Assembly (NCBI GenBank): GCA_913777025.1
Contig: CAJYQM010000016.1
Coordinates: 17,720 to 81,719 of the forward strand
Direction of reading: 5' to 3'
Source: an uncultured Massilia sp.
GTDB lineage: Bacteria; Pseudomonadota; Gammaproteobacteria; Burkholderiales; Burkholderiaceae_D
DNA: 64,000 nucleotides
The position numbers and the translations under genes are program-made. Below the pieces are notes generated by a model, which saw only the letters and a program-made list of their open reading frames with translations, was not told where the DNA came from and did not search any database. Shown here in pieces: positions 7,064 through 60,031 of the stretch (within the stretch, counting starts at the first letter, position 1; every line of letters begins with the position of its first letter).

Positions 7064-9396
7064 TGAAAAATAATTCCGGTAGCACCCTGCCAACCCCGAC
7101 GCTGCGCCGTATCGCGGCCAGCGTCATGCTGTGCTGCGCCGTGGCCACGGCAGTCCCGCCCGTGCCCGCCTTCGCCCAGGAAGGCAACGGCGCGGCGCTC
7201 AACTTCGTCAACGCCGACATGGAATCGGTGATCAAGGCGGTCGGCCACTATACCGGCATGACCTTCATCATCGACCCGCGCGTGAAAGGCACGCTGACCC
7301 TGGTCTCGGAGCGCACGCTGACCAAGGCCCAGGCCTTCTCGCTGCTGACCTCGGCGCTGCGCCTGCAGGGTTACGCGGTCGTCACCGGCGACGGTTTCGC
7401 CAAGGTGGTGCCGGAAGCGGAAGCCAAGCTGCAATCCTCGCCGACCCAGATCGGCACCGGCGGTTCGCGCGCGCGCGGCGACCAGGTCGCGACCCAGGTC
7501 TACCGCCTGCAGCATGAATCGGCGCCCAACCTGGTGGCCGTGCTGCGCCCGCTGATCTCGCCCAACAACTCGATCATGGCCGACCCGGGCAACAACAGCG
7601 TGGTGATCACCGACTACGCCGACAACCTGCGCCGCCTGTCGAAGATCATCGCCGCGCTGGACTCGCCGGCCACGGGCGACCTCGACGTGATCCCGATCCG
7701 CAACGGCATCGCCAGCGACGTCGCGACCCTGGTCACGCGCCTGCTGGAGCCGGGCGCCGGCGGCGACGCCGGCCGCGTCACCGTGCTGGCCGACGCCCGC
7801 ACCAACTCGGTGGTGGTGCGCGCGCCGTCGCAGGCGCGCGCCAACATGGCCAAGAACCTGATCGCCAAGCTCGACCAGCCGACCACCGAGCTGGGCAACA
7901 TCCACGTGGTCTACCTCAAGAATGCCGACGCCAGCAAGGTCGCCCAGACCCTGCGCGCGGTGGTGTCCCAGGATGCGTCGGCGGTGCCGGTGCAGCAGCA
8001 GGGCACCGCGGGCGGCTCGATCCAGTCCGGCACCACGGGCGGGACCGGCACCGGCACCGGTACGCTCGGCGGCAACCAGCAGCAGAACAGCATCGGCGCC
8101 GGCGGCACCGGCGGCACCTTCGGCCAGCAGAGCCAGGCCACGGCCGGCGGCGCGGGCGGCGGCCAGGGCTCCGGCTTCATCCAGGCCGACGCCTCGACCA
8201 ACAGCCTGATCATCACCGCGCCGGACGCGCTCTACCGCAACCTGCGTTCCGTCATCGACCAGCTCGACGTGCGCCGCGCCCAGGTCTACATCGAGGCGCT
8301 GGTGGTCGAGGTCAACGCGGCCAAGGCCTCCGAATTCGGCGTCCAGTGGGTCGGCCTGACCGGCAACGACGCCAGCCGCTACCGCGTGGGCGGCCTGCAG
8401 TCGTTCGCGTCGAACAGCTCGAACAACATCATCAACCTGGCGGCGGCCGCGCAGAGCGGCCTGACCGGCGCCAACGGCGCCAGCCTGCCGACGCTGGGCG
8501 GCCTGTCGATCGGCCTGTTCCGCCAGGTAAACGGCCAGCTCGGCCTGGGCGCGATCGCGCATGCCCTTGAAACCGACGGCGACACCAACATCTTGTCCAC
8601 GCCGAACATCATCACGCTGGACAACGAACTGGCAACGATCAAGGTCGGCCAGAACATCCCGATCCTGACCGGCTCGTTCACCACCAACTCCAGCGGTTCG
8701 AGCAACCCGTTCCAGACGATCGACCGCAAGGATATCGGCCTGCTGCTGAAAGTGCGCCCGCAGATTTCCGAAGGGGGTACGATCAAGATGGCGATCTACC
8801 ACGAGAACTCGGGCATCGACAATTCCGTCGCGTCGACCTCGGGCATCGTGACCACCGTTCGCGCGATCGAGAACAACATCATCGCCGACGATGGCCAGGT
8901 CGTCGTACTCGGTGGCCTGATCTCGGACGACGAGAACCACAACGAAGAAGGCGTGCATGGCCTGGCCGACATCCCGGTCATCGGCAACTTGTTCAAGTAC
9001 CGCACCCGGACTCGTACCAAACGCAACCTGATGGTCTTCCTGCGTCCGATCATCATCCGCAGCAAGGAACAGAACGCCAGCATCTCGATGGACCGTTACG
9101 ACTACATGCGCGCAGCGGGCGCGGAGGCCCAGCCGAACGACGACAGCGTCCTGCTGCGCAATCTCGGCGCCCCGATCCTGCCGCAGCTGACCAATGGCCA
9201 GCCGCCGGTGAACAACGGCATGATGGCCACGGTGCCGCCTCCGGCGCCGGTCGCGCCGCGTCCGGGCCAGGCCACCGGTGCCGGTACCGCGCAGCCGCAG
9301 GCCTCCGGCCAGCGCGACAGCCGCCCGGCCCAGCCGGTCGTCGTGTCGCCGAGCGGCAACGCGTACCGGCCGGCGACCCCGACGCAGCAGAACTGA
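7063..9396 (+). CDS. gspD: Type II secretion outer-membrane secretin GspD
   Basis: GspD is the multimeric outer-membrane channel of the type II system. The 777-residue product has a signal peptide ending near PAFAQ (~residue 38). The N0 domain follows (LNFVNADMESVIKAVGHYTG), then the N1-N3 repeats (about 140-400). A long Gly/Thr/Gln-rich insertion (~320-372) sits in N3. The secretin core (~400-670) ends with VPVIGNLFKYRTRTRTKRNLMVFLRP-type sequence, written here as DIPVIGNLFKYRT. The C-terminal tail is Pro/Gln-rich and of low complexity. No lipobox is seen, so pilotin dependence is unclear. Confidence 0.96.
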   Translation: MKNNSGSTLPTPTLRRIAASVMLCCAVATAVPPVPAFAQEGNGAALNFVNADMESVIKAVGHYTGMTFIIDPRVKGTLTLVSERTLTKAQAFSLLTSALRLQGYAVVTGDGFAKVVPEAEAKLQSSPTQIGTGGSRARGDQVATQVYRLQHESAPNLVAVLRPLISPNNSIMADPGNNSVVITDYADNLRRLSKIIAALDSPATGDLDVIPIRNGIASDVATLVTRLLEPGAGGDAGRVTVLADARTNSVVVRAPSQARANMAKNLIAKLDQPTTELGNIHVVYLKNADASKVAQTLRAVVSQDASAVPVQQQGTAGGSIQSGTTGGTGTGTGTLGGNQQQNSIGAGGTGGTFGQQSQATAGGAGGGQGSGFIQADASTNSLIITAPDALYRNLRSVIDQLDVRRAQVYIEALVVEVNAAKASEFGVQWVGLTGNDASRYRVGGLQSFASNSSNNIINLAAAAQSGLTGANGASLPTLGGLSIGLFRQVNGQLGLGAIAHALETDGDTNILSTPNIITLDNELATIKVGQNIPILTGSFTTNSSGSSNPFQTIDRKDIGLLLKVRPQISEGGTIKMAIYHENSGIDNSVASTSGIVTTVRAIENNIIADDGQVVVLGGLISDDENHNEEGVHGLADIPVIGNLFKYRTRTRTKRNLMVFLRPIIIRSKEQNASISMDRYDYMRAAGAEAQPNDDSVLLRNLGAPILPQLTNGQPPVNNGMMATVPPPAPVAPRPGQATGAGTAQPQASGQRDSRPAQPVVVSPSGNAYRPATPTQQN

Positions 9397-12105: not shown

Positions 12106-12834
12106 ATGAACAAGCGCTTGCCCTTAATTTTGAGCCTGGTCGGCGTGATCCTGCTGGCGGTCTCCCTTGCCTACTGGATCCTGCAGCTGTATCGACCGCC
12201 GCAACGGCCGCTGGCCGCCGTGCCGCATGCCACGATGCCGGAACCGCCGATCCAGGCGGCGGCCACGCTGTTCGGTGGCCAGGTCGCGACCGCCACCGTC
12301 ACCAGTTACCAGCTGACCGGCATCGTCGCAGCCGGCCGCGACAGCGTGGCGATCATCGTGGCCGAGGGCTCGCCGCCGAAGGCGCTCAGGGTGGGCAAGG
12401 AATTGTCGCCGGGGATCACGCTGGCCGAAGTCCATCCGCGCTACGTGATGCTGTCCGACGGTGGCGTCATGAAGCGCATCGATCTCGCAGCCGACGCCAA
12501 GGCGGCGGCGCCGATGGGCGGTCCCGCCAACGATGCCAATGGCGCGATGGCCGCACCCATGCCGCAAGCGCCCGCAGGCAATACAGTGAGCAATCCGGTG
12601 AACGCGCCGCAATTGGCGTCGCCGGTGCCGGAAGGACCGCTGCCGCCCAGCGAGAACACGCCCGAGCCGCCGATGTCGCCGGGCGCCGTGTCGCAGCAGA
12701 TGCCGGGAAGTAATCAGATGGGCCCGTCCGGCCAGGCGCCGGCCCAGAACGCCGTGCAGCCGCCGGCGGCGCAGATGGCACCGCCGGTGCAGGGCAGTGC
12801 CAGCCCTGGCGGCCGCGTACCGCCGAGCCAGTAA
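12106..12834 (+). CDS. gspC: Type II secretion inner-membrane protein GspC (short form)
   Basis: GspC connects the inner-membrane platform with the secretin. The 242-residue product has one N-terminal membrane helix (LSLVGVILLAVSLAYWIL). A homology-region domain follows (~45-125), with the typical AAATLFG and YQLTGIVAAG. The PDZ or coiled-coil domain of enterobacterial GspC is missing; a ~115-residue Pro/Gln/Ala-rich tail replaces it. Short GspC proteins of this type are known in betaproteobacteria. Its place as the last gene of the operon, after gspF, differs from the canonical gspC-D-E order. Confidence 0.85.
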   Translation: MNKRLPLILSLVGVILLAVSLAYWILQLYRPPQRPLAAVPHATMPEPPIQAAATLFGGQVATATVTSYQLTGIVAAGRDSVAIIVAEGSPPKALRVGKELSPGITLAEVHPRYVMLSDGGVMKRIDLAADAKAAAPMGGPANDANGAMAAPMPQAPAGNTVSNPVNAPQLASPVPEGPLPPSENTPEPPMSPGAVSQQMPGSNQMGPSGQAPAQNAVQPPAAQMAPPVQGSASPGGRVPPSQ

Positions 12835-12857
12835 AGCGGTTCACACCGCGTTGGCGC

Positions 12858-13589
12858 TCAGCGGCGCAAGGCCGTGAACGCCGCGAATTCCCACGAACGG
12901 AAGCCGACGAGCAGGGTGAAGCCGTCGCGTTCCTGCGGCGCCAGGCGCCGGTCGTTGCGGTGCATGCGCGCCAGTTCCCCCGCCAGTTGATGAATGCGTT
13001 CCGCGAGCTCGGCCGCCGAGGCCAGCGACAGGCGCGCCGGCAGGCACATCAGCGTCTCGCCGGGCCCGTCGAAGCGGCCCTCGAAATAATCGCCGACGAC
13101 GTTGTCGCGGAAGAAGCGCTGTACCGGACCGTCCGGCAGCCAGCGGAAGGCGTTCGAGACGCGCAGGCTGTAGCGGTTCAGGGGTTTCAGTTCGATCACG
13201 CCGAGGCGGTCGAGTTCCACCAGCAAGCCGATGCATTCGGCCTGGGTCAAGCGGTAGGTTTCGACGACTTGCTCCAGGCTCCAGTGGCCGAGGCAGCAAA
13301 TCGCCACCAGCAGCAGGCGCGGATTGGCGACCAGCGCGTTTTCCTGGACCAGCGTCAGGGTATCGGCTTGCGGGCGCGCATCGGCGGCGCGCCGCATCAC
13401 GTCTTCCATGGCGATGCCGGCCGCCTGGCAGATTTGCGCCAGGCGCGACAAGGTCATGTCCTTTTGGCCGAACATGCGCTTGATGCTCGATTCGCTCATG
13501 GCGATGCGGTCGGCCAGCATCTTGTAGGTAATGCCTGCGGCACGCAGTTCGGCGCGCAGGATGTCCAGCAGCATGTCGGGAGAGCTCAT
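12858..13589 (-). CDS. XRE/Cro-type helix-turn-helix transcriptional regulator
   Basis: The 243-residue protein begins with an HTH_XRE domain (~10-65). ITYKMLADRIAMSESSIKRMF forms the helix-turn-helix, and DMTLSRLAQICQAAGI follows as in this family. The remaining ~170 residues have no domain I recognise; they look alpha-helical and could sense a ligand or make a dimer. It is convergent with the gsp operon (24 bases to gspC). A perfect inverted repeat 13-34 bases upstream of the start suggests autoregulation. The target genes cannot be deduced from this window. Confidence 0.85.
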   Translation of the reverse strand: MSSPDMLLDILRAELRAAGITYKMLADRIAMSESSIKRMFGQKDMTLSRLAQICQAAGIAMEDVMRRAADARPQADTLTLVQENALVANPRLLLVAICCLGHWSLEQVVETYRLTQAECIGLLVELDRLGVIELKPLNRYSLRVSNAFRWLPDGPVQRFFRDNVVGDYFEGRFDGPGETLMCLPARLSLASAAELAERIHQLAGELARMHRNDRRLAPQERDGFTLLVGFRSWEFAAFTALRR

Positions 13590-13601
13590 GGGGTTCCGTT
13601 G

Positions 13602-13623
13602 TTCGTTACCTTACGTTAACGAA
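13602..13623. promoter_or_regulatory. Inverted repeat TTCGTTA-N8-TAACGAA, candidate operator of the XRE regulator
   Basis: Perfect 7-bp arms separated by 8 bp lie immediately upstream of the regulator start codon (13589). Position, symmetry and spacing fit a dimeric HTH repressor site that would overlap the promoter or 5' end of its own gene. Confidence 0.55.
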
Positions 13624-13724
13624 TGTACAGAAGATGGGCGGGGAGTACAAGGCGCAACGCGGCCGTGGCCGCGTGCTTGGGGACGCCGCAAGGAAATCGC
13701 GGCACGTTGTAACGGAGCAATAAC

Positions 13725-13922
13725 TTACTCGTCCTCGGGTTCGAGTTTGACCTTCTTCAGCGCCCGCTTGGCGGCCAGCCGTTCGCTGGCCTCGGGCTTG
13801 GCGTGCGGCCCGGCCACACGCGCCTTGGCGAAACCCGCGAACGGGTTGCGCGGTTTCAGGGGCGGCGCTGGCTGGGCGCGAAGGCGCATCTTCTGCCGGG
13901 TTGCCAGTGCTTTGTTCGCCAT
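13725..13922 (-). CDS. Small basic conserved hypothetical protein
   Basis: The 65-residue, Lys/Arg/Ala-rich protein starts MANKALATRQKMRLRAQPAP and ends in an acidic EPEDE. No signal peptide, membrane helix or known domain is visible. It sits 33 bases upstream of the hslU stop on the same strand, downstream of hslU. The composition resembles ribosome-associated or nucleic-acid-binding small proteins, but there is no direct evidence for that. The codon use matches the neighbours, and no overlapping gene competes for this interval. Confidence 0.6.
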   Translation of the reverse strand: MANKALATRQKMRLRAQPAPPLKPRNPFAGFAKARVAGPHAKPEASERLAAKRALKKVKLEPEDE

Positions 13923-50798: not shown

Positions 50799-50831
50799 GC
50801 CGTCCCCGTGCGCTTTGCGCAACGGGACGGC
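50799..50831 (+). terminator. Hairpin after the M14 peptidase gene
   Basis: GCCGTCCC/GGGACGGC forms the outer 8-bp stem, with GCGC-TTT-GCGC inside, 18 bases after the stop codon. There is no U-tract. Confidence 0.6.
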
Positions 50832-50928
50832 GCATGGGCTTCGGCACGGATCAAAACGGGGACCATCGACGCGCATGCGCTGCCGCCGCGGCGCTAGACT
50901 GCGGGCACCACAGCAGGCGTCGATCTCC

Positions 50929-52371
50929 ATGGTCTCTTCCGTCTTGTCCAGGCAGGGCGTCCGGCAAGCCTGGGCCTCGGCCCTGGTGCTGGGCTTTCCA
51001 TTGACGAGCCTGGTCACAGGTTTCGGCATCGGCCTGGCCGGCTTCCTGTTCCTGTTCACCGCCTGCTGCTGGTGGCGTGCCTGCCGCGACGCCCTGTCTG
51101 CCCAATGGCCGCAACTGCGCTGGGTGCTGTTCGCCTTCCTGCTGCACTTCCTCTATCAAGCCTGGCTGGTCCTGGGCCAGGGGCGCGGTGCCAATACGCT
51201 GGACGCGCCGGGACGCATGGTGCTGGTGCTGTCCGCGCTGCTGGTGGTGCGGGTGGCCGGGCCGCCGCCGGCGGCGTTGTGGCTGGGTGCGGCCGGTGGT
51301 GCGCTGCTGGGCGCCGGCTTCGTCGCCTGGCAGCGCTGGATGCTGGGCCTGGACCGCCCCGGGGGATTGCTGAACCCCATCACCTTCGGCGACTTGTCGC
51401 TGTGTCTCGCCCTGCTGGCGCTGGTCGGCCTGGCCGAGGCGCGCACGGCGCCGCGGCGCTGGATCGCAGGAGGCGGTATCGCGGCGGGGCTGGCGGCCTC
51501 GCTGCTGACCGGCAGCCGCGGCGGCTGGCTGGCGCTGGCCGCAGCTTTCTTGCTGCCGGCCTGGAGACGCGACCTGCTGCCGCGCCGGCTGGCGTTGGGC
51601 GTGCCGCTGCTGGCCTGCGCGCTGGCCGGCGCCGCCTGGGCCTTGCCGCAGACCGGGGTGCGCACGCGCGTGGCCGAGGGCGTGCGCGACGTCCGGCTTT
51701 ATTTGGCCGGCAGCCCGCTGCCGACCTCGGTCGGCGTGCGCCTGGACCTGTGGCGCGCCGGCCTGCGCCTGGCCGCCGAACATCCGTGGCGCGGCCAGGA
51801 CACGCCAGCCTATAAACGCCGCATGCGCGAATGGGTCGCGGCCGGCGAGCTCGGCCCGGCCGTGTTCGCACCGCCCGAACCGCCGCACCTGCACAACGAC
51901 GCGCTGCAGGCGCTGGTCACGCGCGGCATCCCCGGTTTGCTGGCCTGGCTCGGCATCCTGCTGGCCCCGCTTGCCTTTTTCCGCGCGCAGCTGATGCAAG
52001 CCAGGGGAACGCGGCGCGCGGCCGCGCTGGCCGGCCTGCTGATGGTGCTGGCCTACGCCGCCTTCGGCCTGAGCGAAGTCATCTTCTGGTCGATGAAGGC
52101 CAGCGTCTTCTATGCGCTGATGGTGGCCCTGCTGATGGGCTGGTGCCTGGCCGACGAGGCGTCATGGACGGTGCCCCGCCCGCAGCCGGCTGTCCGCGCG
52201 CGCCTGCTGCAAGCGTTCCAGCGCCGCCGGAAACGGCCCCAGCCGGCCGCTGCAACCATCGGCGAGCGCCCGCCACAGGATGCGCAGGCTGCCCCGGCGC
52301 AGGCGGCCTGCGCAGGCCAGCCACAGGGAGGTGCCGAACAGCAGCGCAAGCGCAGTCGGCACGGCGGGTAG
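50929..52371 (+). CDS. O-antigen ligase-like (Wzy/WaaL superfamily) membrane protein
   Basis: The ATG at 50929 gives 480 residues with about ten hydrophobic helices from ASALVLGFPLTSLVTGFGIG to FYALMVALLMGWCLAD. The LLTGSRGGWLAL motif and the periplasmic loop LRLAAEHPWRGQDTPAY with PHLHNDALQALVTRGIPG fit the O-antigen ligase/polymerase superfamily. It may join or polymerise the glycan made by the neighbouring locus. The last ~70 residues are a Pro/Gln/Ala-rich tail. This tail overlaps the convergent GT2 gene by 210 bases, so the true stop could be questioned, although no earlier stop exists in frame. Confidence 0.85.
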   Translation: MVSSVLSRQGVRQAWASALVLGFPLTSLVTGFGIGLAGFLFLFTACCWWRACRDALSAQWPQLRWVLFAFLLHFLYQAWLVLGQGRGANTLDAPGRMVLVLSALLVVRVAGPPPAALWLGAAGGALLGAGFVAWQRWMLGLDRPGGLLNPITFGDLSLCLALLALVGLAEARTAPRRWIAGGGIAAGLAASLLTGSRGGWLALAAAFLLPAWRRDLLPRRLALGVPLLACALAGAAWALPQTGVRTRVAEGVRDVRLYLAGSPLPTSVGVRLDLWRAGLRLAAEHPWRGQDTPAYKRRMREWVAAGELGPAVFAPPEPPHLHNDALQALVTRGIPGLLAWLGILLAPLAFFRAQLMQARGTRRAAALAGLLMVLAYAAFGLSEVIFWSMKASVFYALMVALLMGWCLADEASWTVPRPQPAVRARLLQAFQRRRKRPQPAAATIGERPPQDAQAAPAQAACAGQPQGGAEQQRKRSRHGG

Positions 52372-53103
52372 GGTGGCATAGGCACGCGCCACGGCGATGC
52401 GGTTGCGGATGACGAAGTAATGCTTGCGCCCGAATGGCCCGGCGCGCAGGCGGGCGCGGCGTTCGCGCAAGTGCTCGACCACGCTGTCCGGTACCAGCCA
52501 CAGCGCCAGGCCGGCGCGGCCCAGGCGCAGCGAATATTCGGTGTCGTCGTAGCCCAGGAAGAAGCCCGGTTCGGGCAGGCCGGCGCGCGCGATGGCCGCC
52601 GCCGACACCAGGAAGCCGACAAAGGAGGCGGTGTCGACGCGGCAGGGCGGGCCGTCGTAGGCGGCCTGCGGCAATGCGCGCTCGAGGCCGGTCGGCAGGT
52701 GGTAGCGGCGCCGGTGCCGGCGCGCGACGTCGCCGAATTCGCGCACCGTGCCGCACACGGCGCCGGCATCCGCGGCCGGGCCGTCCAGTGCATCGAGCAG
52801 ACGGGCCAGCGCGTCCGGCCGGACCAGCGCATCGTCGTCCAGCAGCCAGATCCAGTCGTGCCCGGCCGAGAAGGCCCGGGTCATGCCGAACGCGAAGCCG
52901 CCGGCGCCGCCGAGGTTGCTGCCCGGCCGCAGCAGCGTCACGCCGTCCAGGTTGGCTCCCGGCGCGCCCGGCGCCGCGGCATCGCCCCCGTTGTCGACCA
53001 CGTAGATCGCGTCCAGCCGCCGGCTCTGGGCACGCAGCGCCGCCAGGGCCTGCAGCAGCAGGGCCGGACGGTTGTTGGTGACGAGGACGGCCGCGATCTG
53101 CAT
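52162..53103 (-). CDS. Glycosyltransferase family 2 (rhamnosyl/galactofuranosyl-transferase type)
   Basis: The 313-residue cytoplasmic GT-A enzyme transfers a sugar to the growing glycan. AAVLVTNNRPALL at the N-terminus, YVVDNGGD, NLGGAGGFAFGM and the metal-binding DDD in WLLDDDALV are clear. FLGYDDTEYSLRLGRAG matches the ED(Y)-type motif of the rhamnosyltransferase group. A C-terminal hydrophobic/amphipathic segment may touch the membrane. Its 3' end lies antisense to the ligase-like gene. It is the last gene of the minus-strand glycan operon. Confidence 0.92.
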   Translation of the reverse strand: MQIAAVLVTNNRPALLLQALAALRAQSRRLDAIYVVDNGGDAAAPGAPGANLDGVTLLRPGSNLGGAGGFAFGMTRAFSAGHDWIWLLDDDALVRPDALARLLDALDGPAADAGAVCGTVREFGDVARRHRRRYHLPTGLERALPQAAYDGPPCRVDTASFVGFLVSAAAIARAGLPEPGFFLGYDDTEYSLRLGRAGLALWLVPDSVVEHLRERRARLRAGPFGRKHYFVIRNRIAVARAYATLPAVPTALALLFGTSLWLACAGRLRRGSLRILWRALADGCSGRLGPFPAALERLQQARADSRLRAGHRP

Positions 53104-53130: not shown

Positions 53131-54168
53131 TCAGCTCTGCGCCAGGCGCCGCACGATGCGCGCCGCCAGCCGGCGCATCGGGTGGTGCGGCCGCTGCGGA
53201 TCGAACAGCATCGCGTGCAATGCGCTGCTGCGCTGGAAGGCCAGGCGCGCCAGTGCCTTCTGGCGCCGGCGCCGTTCGATCAGCCGCCGCAGCGGCGCCG
53301 GATCGGCGACCCCGGCCAGTTGCGGATTGGCCAGCGCCAGCCAGTCCAGGTGCATCAGGTTGTTCAGGCGCTGGAAGGACGAGGCGCCGACCCAGTCGTA
53401 TTTCATGAAGCGCAGGCCGATCTGCCAGGGGTCGAGCAGCATCACGTCCCGGACCAGGAAGCGCTCGAAGTCGGCTAGCACGGTGTCCGCGGTGTCGTTC
53501 AGGAAGCGTGGGCAGGCGTAGCCGCGCGCGCGGGCGAAGTGCATGCACAGATACTGTTCCACTGCAAAGCGCGCGCGGAACTTGCGTTCGAAGACGGTCG
53601 AGCCGGCCGCATGCCCCTGGGTTTCGTGCAGGCGCGCATCCTTGGCCGACATCGGCGGGGCCGACCAGTAGTCCTGCAGCAGCGCCGTCGGCCCGAACTG
53701 GAACCAGTCGCTCAGGTGGTAGGGCAGGCGCTCGAACATGGTGGGATCGAGCGTGAAGAAGGAGCAGGCCAGCAGGCGCTCGTGCCCGCCGTCAAGCAGC
53801 AGCTGCTCGCGGTAGTAATCGAGGAAGCCCGCGTGTTCGAGGAAGCAATCGGTGCGCAGCTTGACGGCATAGGGCGTGCCGACGGCCGCCAGGCCGGCGC
53901 GGGCGCTGACCAGCTGGCGGTTGATGTTGTTGGCATGCGGGTTGTCGAGCTTGAGCGGCGCCAGGCTGCCCGGGTCCTCGCTCTCGACCAGCGCATCCAG
54001 CGCCATGCCGGGCGGCAGCTCGGCGCCGGCCCAGGTGGAGAGGATCACGCGCGCGCCCGGCAAGACCTTGCGCGTCAGCTTGATGTTGCGCGCGAAGTCC
54101 TCGCGCTCGCGCGTGATATAGGGTTTGAAGGCACCCTGGAACACCAGCGTGATGTCAGCGGTTTTCAT
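53131..54168 (-). CDS. WavE-like lipopolysaccharide/capsule synthesis protein
   Basis: The start at ATG 54168 (MKTADITLVFQGAFKPYI) overlaps the previous gene end by 14 bases. The 345-residue protein matches the WavE family of LPS core genes by its N-terminus, by VILSTWAGAELP and by the conserved YAVKLRTDCFLEHAG. KLRTD is reminiscent of the DXD-type motif of glycosyltransferases, so it is probably one. The acceptor is unknown. Confidence 0.88.
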   Translation of the reverse strand: MKTADITLVFQGAFKPYITREREDFARNIKLTRKVLPGARVILSTWAGAELPPGMALDALVESEDPGSLAPLKLDNPHANNINRQLVSARAGLAAVGTPYAVKLRTDCFLEHAGFLDYYREQLLLDGGHERLLACSFFTLDPTMFERLPYHLSDWFQFGPTALLQDYWSAPPMSAKDARLHETQGHAAGSTVFERKFRARFAVEQYLCMHFARARGYACPRFLNDTADTVLADFERFLVRDVMLLDPWQIGLRFMKYDWVGASSFQRLNNLMHLDWLALANPQLAGVADPAPLRRLIERRRRQKALARLAFQRSSALHAMLFDPQRPHHPMRRLAARIVRRLAQS

Positions 54169-55414
54169 GAGGCGGATGGGCGCGCGGCCGTTTGGGCACG
54201 GGCACGGGCGCGGTGTTCGATGGCGGCGCCTGCGCCGGTGCGCCGGGCGGCGGACCAGTTTCCACGGCGTCATGCGCGTGCTTGCCGGCTTGCGTGCTCG
54301 ATTGAGCAGATTGCTCGCTCAGTTGATCTGTCAGATGCGCTGACAGATGCGCGGACAGATGCGCGGCCAGCTGCGAGTCCGGCTGCGCGTCCAGGCGCGC
54401 ATCGGGTTGCTCAATCGCCTGGTCCCGGTCTTGCGCCCTGAGTTGTTCCCTGAGTTGCTCCCCGAGTTGGTCGATGTACCGGCGCAGCGGGGCTTCCACC
54501 CGCCGCGGCACGCGCTTGACACCGAACAGGCCGTGGCGCTCGAACACGCGCCATTTGCTGTTGCCGTCGGACAGGCTTTCGTAGGGCGCCAGCTCGTCTG
54601 CGCGGTCGGCGGCGATGCGTTCGACCCAGGCCTGGTCGATGCGGTGGAAGCCGGAGCGGATCATGATGAATTCGAGCGCCCGGCGCGGCAGCCAGCGCGC
54701 ATCGCCCGGGCGCCCGAGCAAAGGGTCGACGAAACGCAGCAAGCGCCAGAAGGCGCGGTCGAAGCGGTGCACTTCCGAGAACACATAGGGCGTGCCGACG
54801 ACGGGCGCCGCGCGCGCGTGGGCCACCGTCGACAGCCAGACTTCCTCGCGCGGGTAGGACAGCAGCGTCGGCTGGCGTACCGCATGCTTGATGATGTCGG
54901 CGATTTCGAACAGCAGCGCCGGTTCGTAGCTCGAGCCTTCGACCTGGGAACCGACGATCGGTACCTCGCCCAGGCGCTTGCGCACCGCGTGCAGGGTCAT
55001 GTCGCTCAGGGCCGCGTGGGCGAAGCGCCAGCGGCTGCCCGGCAGGATCGGGCGATGGTGCAGGAAGTTGCCGCCGCGCGCGAGATGGCGCGCGAGGCCG
55101 GCGCGCACCAGCATGTCGTTCGATGCGTGCAGGCAGATGCGCGTGCAGCCTGGCGCATTGCGCCGGATCCAGGCCGCGTTCGCCAGGTGCGCCGCCAGGA
55201 TATTGCCCCAGCCCGTGGACAGGCGCTGCGGATTCAGGATCGCGTTGCCGCAGTCGCGCGCGTCCAGTGCGTCTTCCAGCTGGGCCAGCGTGAAGCGCGC
55301 ATTGGCCGACAGGTGCAGCACCACCTTGGCACCGGGCAGGAAGGCGGCGAAATTGGCCAGCTGCCCGGCGATGACGGCGGGGCGCGTGTGCACGGGCAGC
55401 GAAACGTAGATCAA
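54155..55414 (-). CDS. Unrecognised protein of the glycan locus, possible glycosyltransferase
   Basis: The 419-residue protein starts at TTG 55414 (MIYVSLPVHTRPAVIAGQL). It has GGAG six bases upstream and overlaps the preceding stop by four bases, so it is translationally coupled. The first ~320 residues are well structured (VVLHLSANARFTL, NILAAHLANAAWIRRNAP, LHASNDMLVR, SYPREEVWLSTV). They loosely recall GT14-type transferases, but I cannot assign a family. The last ~95 residues are a low-complexity Gln/His/Pro tail encoded partly by 12-bp repeats. The position in the operon argues for a role in building or decorating the glycan. Confidence 0.7.
   Translation of the reverse strand: MIYVSLPVHTRPAVIAGQLANFAAFLPGAKVVLHLSANARFTLAQLEDALDARDCGNAILNPQRLSTGWGNILAAHLANAAWIRRNAPGCTRICLHASNDMLVRAGLARHLARGGNFLHHRPILPGSRWRFAHAALSDMTLHAVRKRLGEVPIVGSQVEGSSYEPALLFEIADIIKHAVRQPTLLSYPREEVWLSTVAHARAAPVVGTPYVFSEVHRFDRAFWRLLRFVDPLLGRPGDARWLPRRALEFIMIRSGFHRIDQAWVERIAADRADELAPYESLSDGNSKWRVFERHGLFGVKRVPRRVEAPLRRYIDQLGEQLREQLRAQDRDQAIEQPDARLDAQPDSQLAAHLSAHLSAHLTDQLSEQSAQSSTQAGKHAHDAVETGPPPGAPAQAPPSNTAPVPVPKRPRAHPPHENR
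54329..54364. repeat. Three 12-bp tandem repeats in the tail of the unrecognised glycan gene
   Basis: TGTCAGATGCGC, TGACAGATGCGC and GGACAGATGCGC follow one another and encode the Leu-Ser-Ala-His units of the protein tail. The unit keeps the reading frame, so copy-number changes alter only tail length. Confidence 0.8.
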
Positions 55415-56154
55415 GGCAGGCTCCGGTGCGAGGCCACCAGCGCGCCATATTCGGCCGGGGTGCCGGCGAAGTGCACGCGGCTGGCCGGCGCTTCGTCGTA
55501 GACGATGTGCTTGCCGGCGCCGATCAGCGTGTTGTACAGCGGCGCCACGTACAGCTCGCCCCAGCATTCGAGGTAGTCGCCGGCCGCTTGCAAGGCCGTC
55601 TCGCAGGCCGCCGTGAAGTCGGCCGCGCGCGCAAAGTAATACAGGCCGGTGCAGCACAGTCCCGAGATGCGGCGCTTTTCCGAGGTTTCCGCCACGCGCC
55701 GGGTGAACGAGGCCGTGGGGCGCACGAAGGACCAGTGTTCGCCCGCCGCACGCACGACTTCCAGGTAGCCGTCGCTGTGCGCCGCCTCGGGCGGGAAGCC
55801 GTAGCCGGGGCGGATGGTGTCGATGTTGAAGACCAGGATCGCGTCATTGCCTGGACAGCCGGCTTCGCGCAGGCCCAGCAGCACGGTCTCGGCCTGGCCG
55901 CGCGTGGGCGCGTCGAGCGTGACGATGCGGCGGTCGGCGATGCCCAGGCGCGCGCATTCGTCGAGCACGAAGGTCTCGGCGCCGCAGCCGCCGCGCACCA
56001 CGAACAGGAAGCGCTCGCTGTCGAAATAGCGTTCGAAGGAGCGCAGGCAGCCGGCGAACAGCGATGCCCCGTGCAAGGGCAATTCGTATTTGGGACGCTC
56101 GTAGCCGGCCTCACGAAAGCGCCGGCTCTGGCCCGCCATCGGGATGACGATCAT
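55411..56154 (-). CDS. Nucleotidyltransferase of the sugar/phospho-alcohol type
   Basis: The 247-residue protein begins IVIPMAGQSRRFREAGYERPKYELPL, a GT-A pyrophosphorylase signature with the Gly-rich loop and the basic PKYELP motif. ILVFNIDTIRPGYGFP contains the acidic metal-binding residue. It should couple a phosphate ester to a nucleotide (CTP, UTP or GTP; not decidable). It overlaps the end of the preceding fused gene by 44 bases and the start of the next by four. Similar proteins occur in capsule loci of Campylobacter. Confidence 0.8.
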   Translation of the reverse strand: MIVIPMAGQSRRFREAGYERPKYELPLHGASLFAGCLRSFERYFDSERFLFVVRGGCGAETFVLDECARLGIADRRIVTLDAPTRGQAETVLLGLREAGCPGNDAILVFNIDTIRPGYGFPPEAAHSDGYLEVVRAAGEHWSFVRPTASFTRRVAETSEKRRISGLCCTGLYYFARAADFTAACETALQAAGDYLECWGELYVAPLYNTLIGAGKHIVYDEAPASRVHFAGTPAEYGALVASHRSLP

Positions 56155-57769
56155 CGGAAATCCACTCCAGGTAGAGCCTGATGCCGTTCGCCATCAGCGC
56201 CTGCTGGCGCCGCGGGTCGTCCGCATGCAGGGGAAGCATCGACAGGAACAGCAGCACCATGCCCGGATGACACTGCCACTCGACGGGCAGGCGGCCGGCG
56301 AACGGGGTCGCGGCGAACAGGCGCTGTACCGGCAGGCAGCGCTTGGCCAGCACGCGGAAGTCCAGCGCCTGGCCTTCGCGGCGCAGCAGGTAGAAGCCAG
56401 CGATGATGAAGTCGTACAGCCCGAGCACCGAGTGCGCGAGCTTGGCCAGGTCGTAGCGCAGGTCGCCGAAGCGGCTGGGGCGGCCCAGCGCGTCGGTGCC
56501 GCGCGGGTCGACCATCTTGACGCGGCCGGCGCGGAAGTCGAACAAGATATTGCTGAAGCAAAAGTCACCATGCAGGAAGGCCGGCACCGCCGGCGCCGCC
56601 AGCAGTGCCTGGGCCGCTTCCCGGGCAATGACGCGCAGCGGCGGCGCCGGACGAGTGTTCAGGGTCCAGGGCGCGTCGAGGTCGACGTCGGCCCGGGCGG
56701 CATAGGTTTCCAGGCGTTGCAGGGTCTTGTCCAGGTAGGTCTGGCGGATGGCCTCGGCTTCCAGCGGCGCGGCCTGCAGGCTGCTCGCAGTGCGCAGGTA
56801 GGCGTCGCAGGCGCGGAAGATGCGCCGCCACACGCGCTCGGGCAGGCGGCCGAACACGTACAGCTCGTTCAAGGCGGCCAGGTGGAGGTATTCCAGCTGG
56901 TAGCCGCAGCCGGCGCCGTCGCCGGTGTCGCCGTTGCCGGTCGTGCCATTGCCGGTCGTGCCATTGCCAGTATTGCCATCGCCGGTGCTGCCATCGGTGC
57001 GGCAGATGTAGGGTGCCAGGAAGGGCTTGATGCGGGGTGGTGCCTGTTCGAACCAGCTGGCCTCGGCCAGGATCTTGGCGCTGTCGCTGCCGGACTTGGT
57101 GACCACGCCGTCCGCCACGCGCAGCTGGTTGAAGTGGCGCTGGGTCGTCATCACGCGCTTGGAGTCGAAATAGGTGTGCACGTGGCCGAAATCGAGCCAG
57201 CGCGCCACCGGCCAGTGCGCCATGCCGCCGACCGCGCGGTCGTAGGCGTTCACGCCATCGATGAAGTCGTCGTTGCCGTCGAGCTGGTCACGCAGCAGGA
57301 GCGCATCGGAAAACGAGAACAGGCCGGTCCAGGTGCCGCCCGGCTGGCCGGCGCGCGGCGCGGCCTGGTACCAGTCGTAGTATTCGTCGGTGTGGCCCAC
57401 GGCCAGCCAGTCGCTGCCCTCGCGCAGCGGGTCGGCGATGAGCGTATCGCCGTACAGCAGGTCGAGCGGGCCTGCCGTGCCGGCGCCATCGGCCATGTCG
57501 AGGACCTCGCGCACCGCCGCCCCCAGAGGCGCGCCGGGCGCGGTGCGCAATACCTCGACCCCGTGCTCGCGCAGCCACAGGGCATCCGCTTCGTCGAGCT
57601 GGAAATCGACCGGCAGGGTCAGGCAGACGCGCCCGTGCGCCCGTCCGAACTGCGTCACCTGGTAGGTGTACAGGCGCCGGTTCCCGACCGGCAGGAAGGC
57701 GGGCGGGATGCGCCCGAACTCGGCGGCGAGTTCGCTTTCGACGTAGGCGCCCGAAGTGATGAGCAGCAT
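56111..57769 (-). CDS. Fused nucleotidyltransferase plus APH/choline-kinase-like protein
   Basis: The 552-residue protein has an N-terminal half (~1-250) with LLITSGAYVESELAAEFGRIPPAFLPVGNRRLY and LDLLYGDTLIADP, typical of a GT-A nucleotidyltransferase. The C-terminal half (~285-535) carries the phosphotransferase motif FLHGDFCFSNILFD and the metal motif VDPRG. The halves are joined by a Gly/Asn/Thr repeat (GNGTTGNGTTGNG) encoded by a 15-bp array. The fusion of kinase and nucleotidyltransferase resembles a LicA plus LicC pair, suggesting activation of a small alcohol as its NDP derivative (inference). It is coupled to the HAD gene by a 0-base gap. Confidence 0.8.
   Translation of the reverse strand: MLLITSGAYVESELAAEFGRIPPAFLPVGNRRLYTYQVTQFGRAHGRVCLTLPVDFQLDEADALWLREHGVEVLRTAPGAPLGAAVREVLDMADGAGTAGPLDLLYGDTLIADPLREGSDWLAVGHTDEYYDWYQAAPRAGQPGGTWTGLFSFSDALLLRDQLDGNDDFIDGVNAYDRAVGGMAHWPVARWLDFGHVHTYFDSKRVMTTQRHFNQLRVADGVVTKSGSDSAKILAEASWFEQAPPRIKPFLAPYICRTDGSTGDGNTGNGTTGNGTTGNGDTGDGAGCGYQLEYLHLAALNELYVFGRLPERVWRRIFRACDAYLRTASSLQAAPLEAEAIRQTYLDKTLQRLETYAARADVDLDAPWTLNTRPAPPLRVIAREAAQALLAAPAVPAFLHGDFCFSNILFDFRAGRVKMVDPRGTDALGRPSRFGDLRYDLAKLAHSVLGLYDFIIAGFYLLRREGQALDFRVLAKRCLPVQRLFAATPFAGRLPVEWQCHPGMVLLFLSMLPLHADDPRRQQALMANGIRLYLEWISDDRHPDGGPEPALS
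56921..56995. repeat. Five 15-bp tandem repeats linking the two domains of the fused enzyme
   Basis: Units of the type GCCGGTCGTGCCATT are repeated five times, two of them identical. They encode a five-residue repeat, Gly-Asn-Gly-Thr-Thr-like, on the minus strand. The unit length preserves frame, so the linker length may vary between strains. Confidence 0.9.
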
Positions 57770-58165
57770 TCAGGCACCGGCCTTTTCGGCGGCGAGCAGG
57801 GCATGGATGGCCGGCAGCGAATAGCGCAGGAACTCCGAAGGCCGGATCGATTTGTCGTCCACGTAGAATCCCTCCAGGCCGCACCAGGGCTTGCCGACAT
57901 GGACTTCGTCGAAGGGGACGGCGTGCCGGTCGAGCCAGTCGAGGATGACGGGCAGCGTGTGCGCGTTGATCTTGCCGATGTTGCCGTCGAAGGTGCGCAT
58001 GCTGCGGCTGGTGTTGATGACGATGTCGAAACCCCCGGCCTTGTAGTCGCGCAGGCGGGCGATCAGCGCCAGGTTGGGCAGCGCGTTCGCATAGTCCGCG
58101 GGCATGGCGCCTTCCGGTGCGGCCAGCGTGAGGGTGTCGTCGAGGTCGATGATCAAGCGTTTCAT
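57770..58165 (-). CDS. Small HAD-superfamily phosphatase of capsule loci
   Basis: The 131-residue protein has the HAD motif I LIIDLDDTLTL at its N-terminus, motif II in IVINTSRSMRTF, and a Lys in VHVGKPWCGLEGFYVDDKSIRP that fits motifs III/IV. It lacks a large cap domain. Its small size and position resemble the HAD enzymes of Campylobacter capsule clusters that dephosphorylate an aminoalcohol or sugar phosphate. It is the first gene of the minus-strand cassette and its stop touches the next start. Confidence 0.85.
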   Translation of the reverse strand: MKRLIIDLDDTLTLAAPEGAMPADYANALPNLALIARLRDYKAGGFDIVINTSRSMRTFDGNIGKINAHTLPVILDWLDRHAVPFDEVHVGKPWCGLEGFYVDDKSIRPSEFLRYSLPAIHALLAAEKAGA

Positions 58166-58311: not shown

Positions 58312-59031
58312 CTACAATTCGCCGGCCTCGATTTCCGTGACCTGGCCGTGTTCGAGCCGCAGGAACCGGCGGCAGTAGCGCTTCATGGCCGCGATGTCGT
58401 GCGAGGCGAACACGAAGATGCTGACGCTGGAGATCAGTTCGTGCATGCGCCGGGCCGCCTTTTCCTGGAATTCGGCGTCGCCGGCGCCGAACACTTCGTC
58501 GACCAGCAGGATGTCGGGGCGCGTGGAGGTGGCCACCGCGAACATCAGGCGCGTGGCCATGCCGGCCGAATAGGTGCGCACCGGCAGGCCGAGGAAGGGG
58601 CCGAGCTGGGTGAAGGCCTCGATGTCGTCCATGCGGGCGCGGATCTCGTGCTGGCGCAGGCCCAGCAGCAGGCCCATGCGCTGGATGTTTTCGTAGCCGG
58701 ACAGTTCGCTGTCCATGCCGGCGCCGAGTTCGAACACGGTGGCGATCCGGCCCTCGCGCAGCACCTCGCCCCAGGCCGGGTGGTAGACCCCGGCCATGGT
58801 GCGCAACATGGTGCTCTTGCCGGCACCGTTGTGGCCGACGAGGCCGACCGTATCGCCGTCCGCCAGCGTGAAGCTGACGTCGCGCAGCGCGGTCACGATC
58901 TGCACGCCCGAGGCTTCGCGCTCGATCCGGCCGCCGGTCGAGATGCTCACCAGGCGCGATCGCAGCGATTTCGCGCGCACGTCGTACACCGGGTACTGGA
59001 CGGTCACGCCATGGAATTCGAGCCGGGCCAT
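58312..59031 (-). CDS. Polysaccharide ABC exporter, ATP-binding protein (KpsT/short Wzt type)
   Basis: This subunit powers export of a lipid-linked polysaccharide across the inner membrane. The start at ATG 59031 (MARLEFHGVTVQYPVY) gives 239 residues; the track ORF extends wrongly upstream. Walker A GHNGAGKSTMLR, the signature-like RTYSAGMATRLMF, Walker B ILLVDEVFGAGD and the switch His in FASHD are present. The C-terminal carbohydrate-binding domain of long Wzt proteins is missing, so it is of the KpsT-like type. It starts 11 bases after the permease gene. Confidence 0.93.
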   Translation of the reverse strand: MARLEFHGVTVQYPVYDVRAKSLRSRLVSISTGGRIEREASGVQIVTALRDVSFTLADGDTVGLVGHNGAGKSTMLRTMAGVYHPAWGEVLREGRIATVFELGAGMDSELSGYENIQRMGLLLGLRQHEIRARMDDIEAFTQLGPFLGLPVRTYSAGMATRLMFAVATSTRPDILLVDEVFGAGDAEFQEKAARRMHELISSVSIFVFASHDIAAMKRYCRRFLRLEHGQVTEIEAGEL

Positions 59032-59042
59032 CGACCGGTTTC

Positions 59043-59873
59043 CTAGAGCCAGTACGCGATGCGGTTGCGCTTGGCGTTGAACAGCCACAGCGTGACGACC
59101 CAGCCGGCGGCGGCGAGCAGGCCGGTCGTCAGCACCACGAAGCCGGGCGGCGGGCTGCCCAGCAGCGGATAGCGCACGATCTCGATCAGGTGGCTCAAGG
59201 GGTTGAACCAGACGAAGCGCTCGTTGAACGGCAGGTAGCTGGGCCGGTAGAACACGGGACTCAGGAACATCAGCAGGGGCATCGCCGCGCCGATCACGTA
59301 TTCGAGGTCGCGGAAGCGCGCCCCCAGCATCGACAGCAGCAGCGTGATCCAGAGCAGGTTGATGGCCACCAGCGCCAGGCAGGGGACGACCAGCAGCGTG
59401 GCGGCGCCGACCGGCAGGTGGAAGATCAGGAGCACGGCGACCAGCACCGGCACGTTGTGCAGGAAATTGATCAGGTGCTTGAGCAGCATCTGGATCGGCG
59501 GCATCGACAGCGGCACGCTGAGGTTGCGCAGGATCGCGCTCTGGCGCCAGTAGGTGCTGGTGGCTTCCGTGATGCAGCCGCTGAGCAGGTACCACATGAC
59601 CAGGCCGCAGGTGAGCGAGGGGACGAAGGCGGCGCGGTCCATGTGCAGCAGCTCGCTCCACACCAGGCCCAGGCCGAGCGAGCCGGCGGCGGTGCCGAGC
59701 GTCATCCAGAACGGGCCCAGCACGCTGCGCCGGTAGCGCGCGCGCAGGTCGCCGGCGGCCATGAAGGCGATCACGTGCAGCAGGCGCATGGCGCGCCCGA
59801 GGTCGGCCAGGGCCGGGGGCGTGGCCGAAGCGACCGGCGGGGGCGTGGCAATGTCGTGTGCGCTTGCGGTCAT
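59043..59873 (-). CDS. Polysaccharide ABC exporter, permease (KpsM/Wzm type)
   Basis: The 276-residue protein starts at ATG 59873 (MTASAHDIATPPP). It has about six membrane helices in the ABC-2 arrangement, with the family features RYRRSVLGPFWMTLGT, NFLHNVPVLVAVLLIFHLP and VFYRPSYLP. FNPLSHLIEIVRYPLLG is typical of Wzm/KpsM. It forms the channel of the exporter with the next gene. A 158-base gap divides it from the divergent methyltransferase, and I could not identify promoter boxes in it. Confidence 0.93.
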   Translation of the reverse strand: MTASAHDIATPPPVASATPPALADLGRAMRLLHVIAFMAAGDLRARYRRSVLGPFWMTLGTAAGSLGLGLVWSELLHMDRAAFVPSLTCGLVMWYLLSGCITEATSTYWRQSAILRNLSVPLSMPPIQMLLKHLINFLHNVPVLVAVLLIFHLPVGAATLLVVPCLALVAINLLWITLLLSMLGARFRDLEYVIGAAMPLLMFLSPVFYRPSYLPFNERFVWFNPLSHLIEIVRYPLLGSPPPGFVVLTTGLLAAAGWVVTLWLFNAKRNRIAYWL

Positions 59874-60031
59874 GGGAATGCGGATCGGGTGGCTGGAAGC
59901 GCCGATTTTCCGGCAGCCGACCCGGCGCCGACTGATCTTGCGCAATCCGGCTCGATTCCGCTGCAACCGTCCAGCCGCGAATCGCTCTGAGCTCAGGTAC
60001 GGCCCTGGCGGCCGATGTCGAGGAGGGGACG

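Follow-up and report, generated by a model that had tools for sequence, protein, structure and literature searches.

β-D-Fructofuranose is present in the capsules of Escherichia coli K4, K11 and K52 and of Campylobacter HS1, and no description of a fructofuranose donor (NDP-fructose) for these capsules was found in the literature. In K4, fructose is carried on a chondroitin backbone that, as described, has no phosphate; KfoE has been published as the capsule "fructosyltransferase", and KfoD is given as a protein of unknown function. Deletion of kfoE yields unfructosylated chondroitin, and the deletion arms have been printed (PMC7429809). CP103510.1 is the K11 plasmid, for which a figure legend lists Fru (PMC10433991), and K52, the commonest K locus of CC69 (PMC13171598), has a structure paper whose title names a "fructose-containing" polymer, so that two of the three E. 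coli fructose assignments (K11 and K52) rest on titles or legends. In Campylobacter jejuni HS1, the fructose transferase is HS1.08. A different use of fructose is seen in C. jejuni HS:5, in which a CDP-6-fructose/CDP-6-glucitol pathway begins from fructose-6-phosphate (PMC10918830).

We analyzed a cassette of five genes in a 64,000-nucleotide stretch of DNA from an uncultured Massilia sp. (the window). A sequence-only reading had proposed that the cassette makes a nucleotide-activated phospho-substituent and attaches it to a surface glycan. The five genes, their order and their junctions were re-derived from the sequence and agreed with that reading in every case: all five frames lie on the minus strand, the TGA stop of the HAD gene abuts the ATG of the fused gene with 0 bases between them, and the following overlaps are 44 bases (fused gene/second nucleotidyltransferase, 56111–56154), 4 bases (second nucleotidyltransferase/~320-residue-domain gene, 55411–55414) and 14 bases (undescribed-family gene/WavE gene, 54155–54168). 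The motifs DLDDTLTL, LHGDFCFSN and MAGQSRRF were present as reported. The range given for the cassette, 54155–58165, holds four of the genes, and the WavE gene (54168–53131) lies almost wholly outside it. The TTG start at 55414 is backed by homologues that begin M-IYVSLxVH at the same residue, and the ATG start of the WavE gene by a second locus (L011). As the HAD gene lies 146 bases downstream of Wzt, the cassette follows the genes of the Wzm/Wzt exporter, with which it shares a strand. On its 3′ side lie a GlfT1-like family 2 glycosyltransferase (GT2) gene and, on the opposite strand, an O-antigen ligase gene, which suggests that the glycan is linked to lipopolysaccharide (LPS). The source genome has a single HAD copy and a single WavE copy.

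Table 1. Features of the cassette and its surroundings (positions in the window).
Feature	Position	Strand	Basis
O-antigen ligase (Wzy_C)	50815..52371	+	domain assignment
Family 2 glycosyltransferase, GlfT1-like, below curated cut-off	52162..53103	-	profiles
WavE-family protein (PF07507), candidate transferase for the activated sugar	53131..54168	-	Pfam profile; ATG start 54168
Undescribed family ('WUNK'), ~320-residue domain plus low-complexity tail, possible glycosyltransferase	54155..55414	-	TTG start 55414
Second nucleotidyltransferase, canonical signature (MAGxSxRF..PKY, NIDT), putative maker of nucleotide-activated sugar	55411..56154	-	profile, PDB 4evw match
Fused protein, KfoE family: nucleotidyltransferase fold plus APH-type kinase, putative sugar kinase	56111..57769	-	profile, model, homology
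HAD phosphatase, TIGR01689 (EcbF/BcbF family), putative 6-phosphate remover	57770..58165	-	profile, PDB 1xpj match
Wzt, ATPase of polysaccharide ABC exporter	58312..59049	-	profiles
Wzm, permease of polysaccharide ABC exporter	59043..59966	-	profiles

The HAD protein scored 174.9 bits against TIGR01689 (EcbF-BcbF; curated cut-off 162) in the NCBIfam profiles and matched PDB 1xpj at E=4e-47; its catalytic residues D7, D9, T52, K92, D103 and D104 are all conserved in the family alignment. The second nucleotidyltransferase matched the Pfam family NTP_transf_3 (E=1.2e-6) and PDB 4evw (E=4e-60), and G8, R12, P21, K22 and D112, which include the signature Arg/Lys and the metal-binding Asp, are invariant in its alignment.

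The fused protein carries a C-terminal APH domain (Pfam, E=1.5e-6), whose kinase residues K225, E236, H400-G-D402, N407 and D421 are invariant in 17 sequences reaching down to a Patescibacteria relative; their loss had been named as a possible refutation of the proposed function, and they are intact. The Fructosamine kinase profile is touched weakly by 5 of the 17 family members (best E=0.012). A structural model of the fused protein (pLDDT 76, pTM 0.77) places its N-domain among nucleotidyltransferases in Foldseek (GDP-mannose pyrophosphorylase, MurU, HddC and 4evw), and this domain aligns with the second nucleotidyltransferase (P=2.5e-5). The GxGxR..PK signature is absent from the N-domain, with SGAYVESELxAEFGxIPPxFLP in its place; judged by this replacement, the N-domain appears to be degenerate or to perform different chemistry. 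The kinase domain and the canonical second nucleotidyltransferase look catalytically active because they keep their catalytic or signature residues. Between the two domains of the fused protein, a ~15-base tandem repeat (56915–56996) encodes a Gly/Asn/Thr/Asp-rich insert that is absent in the aligned relatives.

Whether all five genes travel together had been posed as a check on the cassette. A core of three does: the HAD, fused and second nucleotidyltransferase genes are complete in 32 of the 37 loci with a fused protein, mostly within ~2.7 kb on one strand, which argues against a chance assembly, and the WavE and undescribed genes vary between loci. Of the five incomplete loci, three (L007, L009 and L015) are on short contigs that end close to where the gene is missing, and L046 seems genuinely to lack HAD. 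In the fifth, L008, from a Massilia metagenome assembly, the HAD frame (7400–8003) is apparently shortened internally and the other core genes are intact. Gene order is shuffled in K52 and in L020, L016 and L059. Two fusions were also observed, one joining the HAD and second nucleotidyltransferase in a single frame (L016 727–1827, a Patescibacteria contig) and one joining the second nucleotidyltransferase to a KfoD-type domain in an 803-residue frame (L057 10022–12433). The fused gene of L060 (9372–11615; E. coli, O92-type wzm/wzt) appears in the annotation as a pair of short hypothetical genes separated by a gap and may be broken. Distances among the three core proteins correlate (Mantel r 0.73–0.87), with shared ancestry accounting for part of the correlation. 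Carriers are sporadic, with full-length matches in 4/399 genomes of the order, 14/399 of the phylum (E<=1e-30) and none of the four other sampled genomes of the same genus, and some core loci are plasmid-borne, suggesting that the core has spread horizontally. The core is thus a genuine activation unit that is both conserved and mobile, and it is constant while the glycosyltransferase-like genes beside it are interchangeable.

The window's fused protein is homologous to K4 KfoE over its full length (547 aligned columns, E=1e-116). In the E. coli locus L019, which carries the core together with the chondroitin synthase of K4, almost identical to PDB 2z86, the published kfoE arms (PMC7429809) map with 0 mismatches to 12220–12269 and 13839–13888. 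The arms thus border the fused gene (12270–13838) exactly, to the base, and identify it as kfoE. The deletion also extends into the HAD gene, taking its final 10 bases, and may have a polar effect on the second nucleotidyltransferase. In work of 2014 ascribed to Liu, kfoE alone is said to complement. The core is likewise carried by the K11 plasmid (locus L005) and by an O15 ST69 locus (L017) taken as K52. It is absent from the K2 (CFT073) and K1 (UTI89) capsule loci, both read directly and the only two negative control loci; the E. coli DNA searches were of limited sensitivity, making the list of core-bearing serotypes a lower bound.

Outside capsules, two LPS-core loci of the Vibrio cholerae wav kind (L050 and L014) carry the core beside waaA, kdkA, heptosyltransferase and O-antigen ligase genes, and V. 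cholerae core LPS contains fructose. The core is also present in the O78 and O20/O137 O-antigen clusters. The O78 structure is a GlcNAc/Man tetrasaccharide, and neither it nor the O20/O137 structures are known to contain fructose. Between galF and wzx, O78 encodes WavE in addition to three ordinary glycosyltransferases, so that neither WavE nor the core seems to be needed for the tetrasaccharide; this fits the loss of an acid-labile branch without proving one, and an acid-labile fructofuranose could have been lost from O78 during isolation. The trio is missing from the published gene list of the fructose-making C. jejuni HS1 locus. HS1 therefore adds fructose without the trio in its locus, and another route to fructose exists. 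C. jejuni IA3902 (HS1/8) has uncharacterized genes (CJSA_1353-1355) of 240, 507 and 132 residues, the sizes of the trio.

Taken together, these data indicate that the trio is probably a fructose-activation unit whose donor is passed by a neighboring glycosyltransferase to the exported glycan as β-D-fructofuranose. The part of the sequence-only reading that described an activation cassette of a kinase and nucleotidyltransferases, which supplies the transferases of an exported glycan, is borne out by co-occurrence and by the APH catalytic residues. Its phospho-substituent, of the LicA/LicC or phosphoramidate type, is a different matter. The combination of a kinase with nucleotidyltransferases does follow LicA/LicC logic, and TagF-like genes are found in the loci of both K11 and K52, whose polymers contain phosphate; but the K2 locus, whose polymer also contains phosphate, has TagF without the core, and no LicD or choline-kinase family match was found among the cassette proteins in Pfam or NCBIfam. 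K4 has the same three genes, is phosphate-free as described and loses its fructose when kfoE is removed. With the core required for fructose in this phosphate-free capsule, its product there would be activated fructose, and a phospho-substituent is highly improbable.

The published assignment, in which KfoE itself transfers fructose and the genes on either side act elsewhere in the pathway, derives from that same deletion, whose phenotype cannot tell donor synthesis from transfer. No glycosyltransferase domain was found in KfoE-type proteins by Pfam, NCBIfam or Foldseek, only the nucleotidyltransferase fold and an APH kinase whose kinase residues do not vary, and a separate KfoD family is common to the K4, K11 and K52 loci; we therefore consider it very unlikely that KfoE is the transferase. 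More weight, although still well on the unlikely side, is given to a core whose activated product, a ketose or some other sugar, is not always fructose and is here a different one such as another ketofuranose. Its presence in O-antigen clusters whose structures are not known to contain fructose, the varying transferase partners and the low identity (35%) between the window protein and K4 KfoE speak for this reading, but the family keeps its catalytic residues, and many others, without variation and the HAD and second nucleotidyltransferase are 54% and 45% identical to their K4 counterparts, which favors one substrate. Fructose is the best-supported product, and the chemistry is predicted.

The partner transferase families differ among core loci: WavE, KfoD and the undescribed family. 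The window's WavE protein scored 134.3 bits against a Pfam gathering cut-off of 27 (E=7e-39). The undescribed protein had no Pfam or NCBIfam match. Structure prediction, which had been suggested for this product, was carried out and gave a poor model (pLDDT 45) from which no fold was gained; its motifs look GT14-like by eye, and searches of PDB and Pfam profiles returned no match. It is possibly a glycosyltransferase. The same family also stands beside the core in L053/L054, and the Ramlibacter locus L013 has the core and WavE without it. Its low-complexity C-terminal tail, far longer than those of its relatives, is encoded by 12/24-base tandem repeats (54332–54469). A single superfamily of WavE and KfoD was considered from a short common motif and rejected on weak hhalign scores (P 0.007–0.012, probability 3–5%), and kinship of the undescribed protein with KfoD was likewise rejected. 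The name KfoD for L019 10415–11848 was given by position and not from a sequence record. The K52 "acyltransferase" (L017 8647–11148) has a KfoD-type domain in residues 300–831, and this annotation may hide a fructosyltransferase.

We propose the following route for the fructose-activation unit. Since fructose is linked through C2, activation would take place at this carbon: the KfoE-type kinase domain would phosphorylate the anomeric C2 hydroxyl of fructose-6-phosphate to give fructose-2,6-bisphosphate, the HAD enzyme would remove the 6-phosphate to leave fructose-2-phosphate, and the second nucleotidyltransferase, perhaps bound to KfoE's degenerate nucleotidyltransferase domain, would convert this to NDP-fructose. 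In heptose activation, the bifunctional kinase/nucleotidyltransferase HldE acts with the HAD enzyme GmhB, which removes the distal phosphate, and it is from this analogy that we infer the order kinase, HAD, nucleotidyltransferase. Transfer of β-D-fructofuranose would likely fall to WavE here, the undescribed protein being the next candidate, and to the KfoD family in E. coli capsules; the acceptor glycan would be exported by Wzm/Wzt.

The sequence-only reading knew of no description of this exact gene set; kfoE, TIGR01689 and the K11 and K52 loci are already in the literature, and a description of the set as a fructose-activation unit was not found. A wider proposal is quite possible, although we stop short of calling it probable: that the core is the missing fructofuranose donor pathway, that KfoE is misassigned, that KfoD, WavE and possibly the undescribed family are the transferases, and that fructose in O78 and other O-antigens has been overlooked as acid-labile. 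If this is true, a compact signature of three genes would let fructosylated capsules and O-antigens be predicted from genome sequence, likely transferase families would be named, and a function would be corrected for KfoE, whose gene, as that of "the fructosyltransferase", is regularly knocked out in chondroitin engineering. It would also provide a nucleotide-activated ketose that is open to a simple tube assay.

Among known systems, HldE/GmhB shares the kinase/nucleotidyltransferase and HAD logic of the core but acts on an aldose rather than a ketose and uses a PfkB kinase, whereas the core has an APH kinase and a separate canonical nucleotidyltransferase; neither a PfkB-type kinase nor a GmhA isomerase was found among the cassette proteins in Pfam and NCBIfam. 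The HS:5 pathway resembles the proposed route in nucleotide activation from fructose-6-phosphate but places the nucleotide at C6, followed by a reductase, has no kinase or HAD enzyme and allows no C2 glycoside (PMC10918830). The K11 and K52 loci share the core and have fructose-containing capsules but differ in their TagF-like/Stealth polymerases and, in K52, in the order second nucleotidyltransferase–HAD–KfoE. Vibrio-type wav clusters carry the core, with WavE in L050, and serve the LPS core rather than an exported polymer; PDB 1xpj and 4evw, the latter from V. cholerae, are relatives. The K4 locus has the core in the same order as the window, in a KpsMT capsule context with a chondroitin backbone and a KfoD-family transferase in place of WavE and the undescribed protein. 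The locus on plasmid p3 of Caballeronia grimmiae, which differs in its plasmid location and in a nearby glf (not found in the genome of the window), has all five genes in the same order as the window, together with an ABC exporter and a GT2.
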